From the NCBI GenBank assembly GCA_947044405.1, contig CAMRHE010000011.1, positions 9,609,001 through 9,673,000 of the forward strand: a stretch of 64,000 bases of DNA, in the 5' to 3' direction. This DNA comes from Leptodactylus fallax. Its lineage: Eukaryota; Chordata; Amphibia; Anura; Leptodactylidae. Shown here piece by piece: positions 40,735 to 45,522 of this stretch. The position numbers and the translations under genes are program-made. Every line of letters starts with the position of its first letter. Positions within the stretch are counted from its first letter, which is position 1. The notes under the pieces are model-generated. The model did not search any database. It was not told the origin of the DNA and worked only from the letters and a program-made list of their open reading frames with translations.

Positions 40735-41216
40735 TGTGATAATTTGGGGAATTAAACTCAAAATGGCGGCTGACTCCTGGTCCGGACAGCGGTGGTTCGT
40801 GGTACTGGGCGCCGGAAAGATAGCTTTCAGACGGTCCAAGTGTAAATAAAAGTGGCTTTATTCAGCTTAACTGCAACATAACAAAACAACAAAAAACCTA
40901 TGCCACAGTTAGGGCCTAACTCACTCCTTGAGCCCCTAACTGTCCTGACTGTTGCTCAGCTCTAGCAACAGTCCCCTGTGGACGCCAGCCCTCTGGGACG
41001 GAGCCTATCTCTCCGTCCTAGCTGGTCCACTCCTGTGGACGCCAGCCCTCTGGGACAGAGCCTCTCTCTCTGTCCAGCTGGGTCCACCACTTCCTGCTTC
41101 CTGCAGGATGCTACAGCCCCTCTGGAGTTACGTGCCACACCCCAAAGGCGTGGCTGAGAGCCTTTTCTGGTCTGGCCTGGGTCACTCAACAGCACCCTCT
41201 GGCTCACATACTTACA
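40735..41216 (-). repeat. 3' LTR of the myosin-tail element
   Basis: Plus-strand ends TGTGATAATTTGGGG and CACATACTTACA. On the minus strand, AATAAA (plus 40857-40862) is the likely polyadenylation signal, which confirms the transcription direction. An internal direct repeat (CCTGTGGACGCCAGCCCTCT) occurs twice, 57 bp apart, near 40974 and 41031. The ORF of the element runs into this LTR. Confidence 0.93.
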
Positions 41217-44200
41217 TACCCTCCCCCTCAGCTCACTACCCATGGGGTGAGCTACAATGGGGCGAGACATCCTATGACGAAGTCCCTCTTCAACCAAGTA
41301 GGCCTGTCCAGTGTCTCTCCAGAATTCCCAATCTGGGGGTCTCTTCTTCCAGATTCCGGTTACTCGACACTTCCGGTTTCTCATCACTTTAACTGCTACG
41401 TCAAGATCCTGGCCATTCTGTGCAAAGGCAAGTTTTTCTTCATCACCTTCACAATTCGCCATACAAGGGATCACATCATTTTCATCACATTTCTCGCCAT
41501 AGTCTTCAGCTATCCCATTGCAGGACTTTGATTCCTTTAGTGAATAGCCGTAAGAATCTTCATCTTCTCCTATCCTGAATCCACAAAAGCTCAGAGACCA
41601 ACTAACACGTACTTCATGCACATCAATGTCTTTAGAGTATAACTGTTTCACGGGTACTTTTTCCGTAACCTTCATCTCAAAACAAACTTTGCCATCACCA
41701 TCAAGGCTTAGAAGTTTAGGAGACATAGGCTGCTTGCTCTGCTCTTTGTTTGAGATACACAATCTCTGTACTGCAATATCTTCTCCTTCTGCACGAGGGC
41801 CATACCGTACACCCTCACAAAATAGCTCAGGCTGAACTACATTTTCTGGTATGTCTTTAACAACTGTCACATCATTGGTGACATGTAACCATCTCTTACT
41901 TCCTGACTCCCCCTTCACAGACAACATGGAGTCATTATTCACCGTTTGTCCACCAGACATGTGGCTAGAGACAGGTACAGCAACACCGTTATCCACAATG
42001 GCTTCAGACACTTTAGCTGTTGGGACAACATATGCGTGGTCAGTCTTCTTACGGACTCTTGTTCCACACTTTTGGTGACCCTTCACCTTATTTACCATCT
42101 CACAGCCCTCTAGGCTTTGGACCTCATTGGTTTGAGGCTGGACCCACTCTGTCACAGGCCGTGTGTGACCAATCACAGTTTCTTCTTCTGTTGGACCTTC
42201 TTTGGCCTCCTCACATTTTGCAGGATCACTCATGTCTGTCTGACTTAATGATTCTCCTTTCTCTGCCTCTATGCTGGCAGCTTTTCCCAATTCTAACGCC
42301 TTCTGTAGCGCACAACTCTCTGATTCCAGCTCCAGAACTTTCTTCACTGCGACATTTTTCTGTGCCGCTTCCATCTCAGTCTTTACTAGTGCACCTTGCA
42401 GCTCTGATTCTTTAGAGGTTAACAGGTTCTGTAGCGAATCCTTCTCAGCTTCTAGTGCTGACAGCTTTGAAGATAGGGCAGATGCCGACTGTTCAGTATT
42501 GGATAGAGACTGCTGCAATCGATCCAATTCTTCTCTTTTAGATTCCACTTCGGTTTTTAACTGTTCAATCTGAAAAGTGCGCTCTTCCAACTTTATTTCT
42601 GACTCGCGCTTCACGTGATCCATCTGAAACTCCAGCTGTTTCTTGATGCGTGCAATTTCCTCCTGCTGGTTCACTTGCACTTTTAGTTTAGCAACAAGCA
42701 TTTTTAGATCTACAATCTCAGCAGACAAATTAGACAGGTTTCCCTCAAACTGAATCTTCATGTCTTCTATCTGGAGGTCCAATTCTCTCTTGGCCTTTTC
42801 CAGCTTGTCATAAGCATTAGCTTTGTTCTCATACAATATCTGCACAGATTCCAGGTTTTTCTCAACTTCATCCTTGGAGCTAACCAAATTCTCCATTTCA
42901 GTGCACAGTTGCTTGTTGAGCCTCTCTAACTCGGCCTTCAATTCAAGGGCCTCTGCTTCAGCACGGTCACGTTCTTCTGCATATCTAGCAGAAAGAGTCT
43001 TCTCTTCACCAAGCAGTTGATCAAACTTTTTCTGCTTCCTTTCCAAATTTGACACCATCCGACGTTGATGATCAAGGTCTACACCTACATCTTCTAGTTC
43101 TTGCTGCAGTCTAATTTTCATCTTCTCAAGTTTGTCATAAGCAGCAACCTTCTCCTCAAACCGTTGATTTGTAGCTTCTAGCTCCTTTTGCAACCTTTCC
43201 TTTAGTTCTTCAACAGAGTCCAAGGACCCAATACTATCTTCCATTTTTTTCATCATATCAGTTGTCTGAACCTGTAGTTCTGCTTGAAACCTGTCCCCTT
43301 CTGTGACTTTTAGTTGCATCACTTGAAGTTGAGTCTCTACTTTTTTATGACTCTCCTGTAAGGCTTGTACTTTCTGAGCATGGACAGATGACATTTCCAT
43401 CAAATCTTTGTCTTTATTTTGCACCAAAACAGACAACTTCTCATTATCTTCACAAGATCCTGACAGCGCCCTTTCCAGGCTACATATTCTAGCTTTGAGT
43501 TCACTTTCTCTTTGTTCCAGAACTCCAGCTTTACTTCGCCATTCGTGGATTTCACCATTTAGGCGAACCTGATGCAAGTTTTGCTCTGACTGCAATGTCT
43601 GCACCACTGATTCTAAATCACTCTCTCGGTCAGACACATACTTCCTCAGCTCGGCAATTTCATTTTCTTTGTCAGATAAGGCAACCGAAAGTTTTTCACA
43701 CATCCTGACTTTGTCATCCAGACATTCTGATTGACTCTGCAAAAATTCACTTCTCTCACGTTTAGCAGTTTCAAAGTCATCTCTTAATTTATCAATGACA
43801 CTCTCTTTGGCAATGGAGTCTTGAACATGCTGCTCCTTTAAATCCTGCAATTCCTTCTCAAGCACTTGCTTTTGCTCTACACTCTGTATAACTTCATTAG
43901 ATAGAGCACATTTCATATCAGCAAACTCCTTCTTAGTGACACAGTCCATTCCAGGCAAACCCAGTACCACATTTTCACAATGACAAGGATGTAACCTCTT
44001 CATAGAGTTAAGCTCTGCCTTCAACTTAAGGTTCTCTCTTTCTGACACCAAAAGTTGCCATTTCCAATCAGATATTTCATTCTCATACATGAACCTGATG
44101 GTTTTATTCTCATCTTGAAGCTGCTGCACCATAATACTTTCATCTTTGGCGCGTTCATGCACTCCATTATGAGACACACACTCAGCAGGGACATATTCCA

Positions 44201-44381
44201 TCATAGAACAGAGGTGCTTTAGAAAAATTGAGTCACCATCATGCAACCCTTTATCTTTACTTGCACTCAACATGATCTGTTCCGGGTTTTGTATCTCTCT
44301 GCACTCAGACTGCTGCACTAATAAACCTGTGCATGACTTCTCTGCTTTTTTACAAGCTGAAATTCTCTTTTTCTTGCCCAT
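40962..44381 (-). CDS. Coiled-coil protein with a myosin II heavy-chain tail-like block, carried by an LTR element
   Basis: An uninterrupted 1139-codon ORF from ATG 44381 (MGKKKRISACKK). Residues about 80-710 are heptad-rich coiled coil. Residues about 340-510 (42852-43364) closely resemble the rod of vertebrate non-muscle/smooth-muscle myosin II: AAYDKLEKMKIRLQQELED, VDLDHQRRMVSNLERKQKKF, DQLLGEEKTLSARYAEERDR and EMENLVSSKDEVEKN follow the family order, but the long stretch between AEAEALE and LNKQL is shortened. AYDKLEK recurs at 523-529, so there is internal duplication. Residues 720-1020 are hydrophilic and unrecognised. The end, GIWKKRPPDWEFWRDTGQ, may be a remnant of the parent element. 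Residues from about 1056 are encoded by the LTR. There is no motor domain, so it cannot move on actin; it might self-associate or bind host myosin tails. Its function is unknown. Confidence 0.85.
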   Translation of the reverse strand: MGKKKRISACKKAEKSCTGLLVQQSECREIQNPEQIMLSASKDKGLHDGDSIFLKHLCSMMEYVPAECVSHNGVHERAKDESIMVQQLQDENKTIRFMYENEISDWKWQLLVSERENLKLKAELNSMKRLHPCHCENVVLGLPGMDCVTKKEFADMKCALSNEVIQSVEQKQVLEKELQDLKEQHVQDSIAKESVIDKLRDDFETAKRERSEFLQSQSECLDDKVRMCEKLSVALSDKENEIAELRKYVSDRESDLESVVQTLQSEQNLHQVRLNGEIHEWRSKAGVLEQRESELKARICSLERALSGSCEDNEKLSVLVQNKDKDLMEMSSVHAQKVQALQESHKKVETQLQVMQLKVTEGDRFQAELQVQTTDMMKKMEDSIGSLDSVEELKERLQKELEATNQRFEEKVAAYDKLEKMKIRLQQELEDVGVDLDHQRRMVSNLERKQKKFDQLLGEEKTLSARYAEERDRAEAEALELKAELERLNKQLCTEMENLVSSKDEVEKNLESVQILYENKANAYDKLEKAKRELDLQIEDMKIQFEGNLSNLSAEIVDLKMLVAKLKVQVNQQEEIARIKKQLEFQMDHVKRESEIKLEERTFQIEQLKTEVESKREELDRLQQSLSNTEQSASALSSKLSALEAEKDSLQNLLTSKESELQGALVKTEMEAAQKNVAVKKVLELESESCALQKALELGKAASIEAEKGESLSQTDMSDPAKCEEAKEGPTEEETVIGHTRPVTEWVQPQTNEVQSLEGCEMVNKVKGHQKCGTRVRKKTDHAYVVPTAKVSEAIVDNGVAVPVSSHMSGGQTVNNDSMLSVKGESGSKRWLHVTNDVTVVKDIPENVVQPELFCEGVRYGPRAEGEDIAVQRLCISNKEQSKQPMSPKLLSLDGDGKVCFEMKVTEKVPVKQLYSKDIDVHEVRVSWSLSFCGFRIGEDEDSYGYSLKESKSCNGIAEDYGEKCDENDVIPCMANCEGDEEKLAFAQNGQDLDVAVKVMRNRKCRVTGIWKKRPPDWEFWRDTGQAYLVEEGLRHRMSRPIVAHPMGSELRGRVCKYVSQRVLLSDPGQTRKGSQPRLWGVARNSRGAVASCRKQEVVDPAGQRERLCPRGLASTGVDQLGRRDRLRPRGLASTGDCC

Positions 44382-44427
44382 GGTTTACTAACAAGATAAC
44401 ACAATATTCCACAGAAACCTTGGGTTC

Positions 44428-45020: not shown

Positions 45021-45038
45021 CCCGGACCTGTAGCACCA
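45021..45038 (-). promoter_or_regulatory. Candidate primer binding site
   Basis: The plus strand reads CCCGGACCTGTAGCACCA, ending in CCA like a tRNA 3' end, two bases from the 5' LTR. I could not match it with confidence to a particular tRNA. Confidence 0.6.
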
Positions 45039-45040
45039 TA

Positions 45041-45522
45041 TGTGATAATTTGGGGTATTAAACTCAAAATGGCGGCTGACTCCTGGTCCGGACAGCGGTG
45101 GTTCGTGGTACTGGGCACCGGAAAGATAGCTTTCAGACGGTCCAAGTGTAAATAAAAGTGGCTTTATTCAGCTTAACTGCAACATAACAAAACAACAAAA
45201 AACCTATGCCACAGTTAGGGCCTAACTCACTCCTTGAGCCCCTAACTGTTCTGACTGTTGCTCAGCTCTAGCAAAAGTCCCCTGTGGATGCCAGCCCTCT
45301 GGGAAAGAGCCTATCTCTCCGTCCTAGCTGGTCCACTCCTGTGGATGCCAGCCCTCTGGGACAGAGCCTCTCTCTCTGTCCAGCTGGGTCCACCACTTCC
45401 TGCTACCTGCAGGATGCTCCAGCCCCTCTGGAGTTACGGGCCACCCCCCAAAGGCGTGGCTGAGAGCCTTTTCTGGTCTGGCCTGGGTCGCTCAACAGCG
45501 CCCTCTGGCTCACATACTTACA
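45041..45522 (-). repeat. 5' LTR of the myosin-tail element
   Basis: 482 bp, same ends as the 3' LTR, minus-strand AATAAA at plus 45163-45168. GTAT follows at 45523-45526 and matches 40731-40734. The terminus of the Tc1 element at 45534 begins about 10 bp further on. Confidence 0.93.

Follow-up and report, generated by a model that had tools for sequence, protein, structure and literature searches.

The genome of the frog Leptodactylus fallax contains a long terminal repeat (LTR) retrotransposon whose single 1139-codon reading frame is a fusion of segments from four host genes, MYH9, HIP1R, a bucky ball-like gene, and HNRNPU. The element lies in a 64,000-nucleotide stretch of DNA (assembly GCA_947044405.1, contig CAMRHE010000011.1, positions 9,609,001 to 9,673,000 of the forward strand), hereafter the window, in which a complete LTR insertion at 40735-45522, with its sense on the minus strand, represents one copy of a multi-copy family. 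A first-pass annotation of this DNA had proposed that an enzyme-free LTR element captured a myosin II rod. The capture stands, but it took in four genes, of which myosin is only one. The account that we consider probable is that of an enzyme-free LTR family, with about 2,000 leader copies, whose four-gene frame was likely joined by template switching and is likely kept because its coiled-coil product aids the spread of the family.

Four host genes in one frame

A phmmer search of the PDB, covering 414 residues of the frame, returned MYH9 as the best match (E=1.2e-43), as the first-pass annotation had expected, followed by MYH11 and MYH10 (1.9e-34 to 7.4e-32). Cardiac myosin reached only about 1e-5, and the anticipated specificity for myosin II over a generic coiled coil thus holds. 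A Pfam scan of the frame found Myosin_tail_1 (7.5e-51), the HIP1 clathrin-binding domain (6.9e-19), and SPRY (2.7e-6), with no match to a gag or env family. The protein-database search with residues 330-600 gave Bufo bufo myosin-9 as its best match (65% identity over 66%), and the search with residues 560-1050 gave 51 proteins, including frog HNRNPU (82%), HIP1R (80%), and the bucky ball-like protein (75%), as well as a partial Ranitomeya HIP1R protein that is 88% identical to the frame. In other copies, where it was measured, the second, shorter MYH9 piece is 40-48% identical to MYH9. One frame thus combines parts of several unrelated host genes, as in the maize element Bs1, and the frame product is predicted to be largely coiled coil.

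"Bucky ball-like" is the name given to the matched protein by its database source. This host protein has no similarity to MYH9 or HNRNPU, and its match to HIP1R is at chance level (E 0.12), which argues that it is not itself a prediction derived from the element. The N terminus of this protein is rich in tyrosine and proline, in keeping with the Buc/Velo1 proteins.

A dispersed family without its own enzymes

A 37-nt leader motif, searched with at most 3 mismatches, has 1,988 matches in the 2.5-Gb genome, and a reversed control has 0. The MYH9 piece has at least 151 genome matches; 150 of its 3,991 first-look candidates were scored, and 33 of the 150 listed matches run for at least 1000 codons without a stop, with frames of 1000-1259 codons. 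We fetched 20 copies (L009-L028), all picked for long frames. Eighteen have frames of at least 1010 codons and one a frame of 887, and in L015 a stop splits the frame into 485 and 636 codons. The MYH9, bucky ball-like, and HNRNPU modules are present in 20 of 20; HIP1R matches at 87% or more in 15, as a 47-48-residue match at 67-70% in four, and is lacking in one. LTRs on both sides of 19 of the 20 bear out the prediction that further copies would share the frame and the LTRs. The paired LTRs of fetched copies are 0.7-3.2% apart, a range measured in some cases on part of the LTR and excluding L016, whose pair spans two elements, and L020, which has no pair. In L016 a second family member (L016:8894-9901) follows the first by 1.7 kb in the same orientation.

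No other sense frame of at least 250 amino acids (aa) was found inside the 20 elements, and a single antisense frame of 264 aa occurs in L013. The protease, reverse transcriptase, RNase H, and integrase pieces of one query, the pol of a Ty3/gypsy element in the window, had no match in the fetched loci, whose interiors are accounted for by the leader and the modules except for 195-1,232 nt in L019, L024, and L027 and some shorter stretches. By this search the family encodes neither reverse transcriptase nor integrase and is non-autonomous, and the gag, pol, and env genes of a retrovirus or provirus were not found in the Pfam scan of the frame or with the gypsy pol query.

Origin of the MYH9 segment and age of the capture

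The host MYH9 gene (L034) was located through a part that the element lacks. Aligned to its exons, an old copy, L035, forms abutting blocks that are 97.6, 93.5, and 96.7% identical, and host introns of about 3.0, 1.2, and 2.7 kb are absent at the three exon junctions. The absence of these introns identifies spliced RNA as the source of the MYH9 segment; the comparison covered MYH9 alone, in L035. The same copy continues for 16 identical nucleotides into the next MYH9 exon before breaking to bucky ball-like sequence. Because the join lies inside an exon, it would fit template switching and not exon shuffling of the splicing type.

Trees were built for three modules (17, 23, and 14 rows). The HIP1R pieces of the element form one clade (support 100/99). 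Bufo, Engystomops, Dendropsophus, and Eleutherodactylus join this clade with 100/99 support, and ranoids, myobatrachids, Spea, and Xenopus fall outside the grouping. A 100/97 split leaves the MYH9 pieces on the same side as the hyloids, and hyloids are also the group that the HNRNPU pieces join (86/92). These trees would place the capture close to the root of the sampled hyloids.

Rearrangement of the modules

An internal part of the myosin piece is missing from the window copy, which has a gap where some other copies carry MYH9 1244-1365. Longer host stretches elsewhere in the family include MYH9 1241-1607 and HIP1R 473-813, the latter unbroken in several of the 43 copies listed. Five old copies fetched for a long HIP1R piece (L029-L033) all contain HIP1R to about residue 804 and the bucky ball-like module, and four of the five contain HNRNPU. 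MYH9 runs from 1247 to about 1550 in L030 and L032. The frame is 1216 codons long in L029, 1051 in L030, and 919 in L032, where a stop precedes it.

Other copies are arranged differently. L035 joins MYH9 (to 1607) directly to the bucky ball-like module (from 115), with no HIP1R, and in L036 and L037, from each of which 1.5 kb was read, MYH9 gives way to bucky ball-like at host residue 217. In L038 the same transition is followed, after bucky ball-like, by HIP1R and the second MYH9 piece, and L039 combines the second MYH9 piece with bucky ball-like and HNRNPU, with no HIP1R between. L035 is likely nearer to the state before HIP1R was acquired, since it holds MYH9 sequence missing from the window copy, L030, and L032. 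The longer, HIP1R-free, and reordered arrangements elsewhere suggest that the window copy is a shortened derivative and that modules move. The frame was thus likely assembled stepwise and reshuffled.

Is the protein maintained?

Relative to the host gene, the MYH9 piece shows nonsynonymous divergence (dN) of 0.06-0.10 and synonymous divergence (dS) of 0.16-0.32, and dS between copies is 0.05-0.15; the low dN in part reflects constraint on the host gene. Between 16 and 20 of 21 copies could be aligned in each segment for a tally of insertions and deletions (indels). All 12 shared indels of the frame have lengths divisible by three, against 1 of 12 for the leader; among private indels the counts are 12 of 18 and 3 of 15. 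Base changes were counted without the duplicated locus (L008 = L015) and without rows below 80% identity to the window copy. The ratio of nonsynonymous to synonymous changes (N/S) is 437/172 = 2.54 for private variants, which matches the expectation of 2.51 derived from the transition:transversion count of the LTR pairs (104:53, L016 left out). For shared variants it is 181/95 = 1.91 (Fisher p 0.069 against private variants, p 0.033 against the expectation). When MYH9a, the query that had ranked the copies, is omitted, the counts are 162/87 shared and 385/139 private (p 0.018 and 0.029). These figures are suggestive of moderate constraint during the spread of the family, short of proof.

Several observations weigh against the proposal. 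The indel test is biased, because its copies were selected for long frames. Seven copies taken without regard to frame length (L002-L008) are divided: in three, all matched modules share one frame, and in L003, L004, L005, and L007 the frame changes between modules, at points that vary from copy to copy. The N/S contrast was larger before the duplicate locus and poorly aligned rows were removed (277/154 versus 595/241, Fisher p 0.013); after their removal the rod modules alone give p 0.27 and 0.018 and the six other modules 0.12 and 0.34, and the shortage of amino-acid changes in shared variants is weak. Pairwise dN/dS, in a tally that includes the duplicate and poorly aligned rows, is 0.5-0.6, not below the uncorrected neutral level of about 0.6 that the private variants indicate, and was for this reason dropped as evidence of selection; the short bucky ball-like piece gives 1.4-2.4. 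Three of the five old HIP1R-bearing copies (L031-L033) have interrupted frames, those of L031 and L033 being broken, and L029, L031, and L033 lack the main MYH9 rod piece. Finally, residues 1-345 gave nothing convincing in PDB, Pfam, and protein-database searches, leaving the N-terminal third of the frame unexplained.

Such observations lend themselves to an alternative that we judge possible though on balance unlikely, namely that the fused protein does nothing, that the LTRs and leader spread the family, and that frames are open in some copies only through the recency of captures and bursts. Constraint that is significant in only some tests, the 0.7-3.2% divergence of LTR pairs, the deletion and reordering of modules, the frame changes in four of the seven copies not chosen for their frames, and a leader conserved above the LTRs would all be expected of a passenger. 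It accounts less readily for frames of 1000-1259 codons persisting in 33 of 150 listed copies despite the MYH9 dS values between copies and to the host, for shared indels that preserve the frame, and for 0 nonsense changes among 276 shared changes where 4.2% would be expected at random, a comparison itself biased by the choice of copies. We retain the reading in which the coiled-coil product probably aids spread.

Structure of the element and its surroundings

The window copy has two LTRs of 482 bp that are 97.1% identical, TG..CA ends, and a short target duplication, the features of a non-autonomous LTR retrotransposon (Table 1). In this the LTRs, the GTAT duplication, the 1139-codon frame, and the lack of gag and pol enzymes described in the first-pass annotation were confirmed by alignment, Pfam scan, and gypsy-pol search, and the primer-site-like stretch and polypurine tract are present by position. 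Repeats of 4 bp also flank L022, L025, L026, and L027.

Table 1. Features of the chimeric LTR element in window coordinates
Feature	Position	Strand	Basis
Single 1139-codon frame, chimeric protein	40962..44381	-	Frame listing; 3' end inside 3' LTR
Residues 1-345, no detectable source; predicted long helices 73-130 and 150-344	43347..44381	-	AlphaFold predicted local distance difference test (pLDDT) 73.7
MYH9 rod piece, residues 346-540 (MYH9 about 1244-1268, then about 1360-1540)	42762..43346	-	
HIP1R coiled-coil piece, residues 567-660	42402..42683	-	
Second MYH9 piece, residues 661-708 (MYH9 about 1085-1132)	42258..42401	-	
Bucky ball-like piece, residues 837-895 (host 230-287)	41697..41873	-	
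HNRNPU SPRY piece, residues 896-1002 (host 281-388)	41376..41696	-	
5' LTR (element sense), TGTAAG...TCACA	45041..45522	-	Pairwise LTR comparison
3' LTR, also last 84 residues of the coding frame (from residue 1056)	40735..41216	-	
GTAT target-site duplication, low side	40731..40734	.	
GTAT target-site duplication, high side	45523..45526	.	
Primer-binding-site position, TGGTGCTACAGGTCCGGG in window copy	45021..45038	-	Position next to 5' LTR
Polypurine tract, before 3' LTR	41217..41229	-	Position
Leader, 659 nt; 163-nt tandem duplication at 44427-44753	44382..45040	-	

At the primer-site position, 14 of the 15 other copies read have TGGTGGAG.. or TGGCGGAG.., mostly TGGTGGAG.., which we take to be the complement of the 3' end of tRNA-Ala; the stretch in the window copy differs from this common form. 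Variants following the 5' LTR among L009-L028 include TGGTGGAGAATGTGGGC and TGGTGGAGACCGCGCGC, with TGGTGCTACAGGTCCGGGC in the window copy, and perhaps reflect different primer tRNAs. A comparison of the window copy with old copies finds the leader 82-94% alike and the LTRs, where they align, only 68-85%. The folding of the leader is more stable than that of shuffled sequences (z -3.6, 20 shuffles). Conservation above that of the LTRs and a stable fold suggest that the leader likely holds cis signals for priming and packaging. Two sub-threshold Rfam microRNA matches in the sequence were taken as chance.

Adjoining the insertion, 45525-46463 is an element with 99-nt terminal inverted repeats and a transposase-like frame (45776-46195), at the edge of which the LTR element seems to have landed. 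Elsewhere in the window are long transposase-like frames at 2349-3146 and 20858-21706 (265 and 282 aa; Tc1/mariner-like by eye) and minisatellite arrays at 7751-8129 and 24009-24387, with units of 35 and 31 bp.

Discussion

The joins in the frame would have arisen through switches of the reverse transcriptase from one co-packaged template to another, host mRNA or element RNA, with enzymes supplied in trans by an autonomous element. The protein might then assemble into a rod-like oligomer and draw together its own RNA-protein particle in cis. Oocytes, in which a bucky ball mRNA would have been available for capture, are a possible setting. Zebrafish Buc(1-361) is reported to bind Vasa (PMC6219760), and the bucky ball-like segment could, as a guess, tie the particle to germ plasm. 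The fuller picture, in which Gag has been replaced by a home-made scaffold, with a MYH9/HIP1R rod, a bucky ball-like segment, and an RNA-binding module gathering the element's own RNA into germ-plasm-like oocyte particles and modules swapped by recombination, is one that we hold to be doubtful.

A helper is a further point on which the proposal is weakened, for none was found among the best 40 of 1,626 candidates for the window LTR and the best 40 of 5,035 candidates for the L035 LTR. One LTR pair 7.8 kb apart, on contig C25, gives no sign of a helper, because the 1.4 kb sampled holds the same bucky ball-like module and then another, inserted frame. At L040:478-1293 (minus strand) a 271-aa frame is inserted after the bucky ball-like module; it resembles the GIY-YIG endonuclease of a Penelope-like element. 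The window itself contains a young Ty3/gypsy element (27912-35077) with LTRs of 978 bp that are 99.4% identical, a GCAG duplication, a PNMA-like gag frame (360 aa), and a complete pol frame (1362 aa). It resembles the chimeric element in its LTR ends (TGTAAG..TCACA) and 4-bp duplication but differs in having pol and a PNMA-like gag, in its primer site, presumably like tRNA-Ser, and in having no LTR alignment of 150 bp or more to the chimeric element. It shows that autonomous elements exist in this genome; as a helper it is only a candidate.

Two further explanations fare poorly. One is that an autonomous family's usual Gag, or a generic coiled coil of such a family, is all that the frame encodes, without any particular tie to myosin. 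It could draw on the long predicted helices of the N-terminal third, but is highly improbable given the margin of some 26 orders of magnitude by which MYH9/10/11 beat cardiac myosin, the 93-98% nucleotide identity of L035 to host MYH9 exons, and the lack of any match to the gypsy pol query in the fetched loci. An origin by DNA-level exon shuffling, segmental duplication, or assembly error, for which the odd mix of genes is the only support, is scarcely credible beside the missing introns of the L035 MYH9 part, LTRs with 4-bp duplications at different places, and about 2,000 dispersed leader copies.

The closest known kind of element is Bs1 of maize, which is low-copy. Bs1 is an LTR retroelement in which segments of three host genes form one hybrid frame (PMC13317346). 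The likeness lies in an LTR element with a hybrid frame from multiple host genes. Bs1 belongs to a plant and uses three genes, all different, whereas here there are four vertebrate genes, some 2,000 leader copies, and a variable module order; its vertebrate host, its copy and gene numbers, and its changing module order set the frog family apart within this kind. Acute transforming retroviruses capture cellular mRNA, E26 carrying two cellular genes, and thus resemble the family as reverse-transcribing elements that take up, and sometimes fuse, vertebrate host messages. They are infectious and retain remnants of viral genes, whereas the present family is germ-line and high-copy with no recognized viral gene. 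Non-autonomous LTR elements of the large retrotransposon derivative (LARD) and terminal-repeat retrotransposon in miniature (TRIM) types share LTRs, primer-site position, polypurine tract, and the lack of pol but have no long protein, in contrast to the frames of the frog family, open in many copies. Literature searches, mostly of open-access sources and at the level of listings, returned no vertebrate LTR element with these genes.

If our reading is true, the family would be a large-scale vertebrate counterpart of Bs1, a selfish element whose recognized protein parts are all host-made, drawn from several genes, reshuffled, and long carried. It makes testable the pickup of mRNA by LTR elements, cis support by a non-viral coiled coil, and the origin of chimeric proteins. 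The bucky ball-like piece would suggest that capture happened in oocytes, and if the scaffold reading were also true, the element would ride the germ line on stolen germ-plasm parts.

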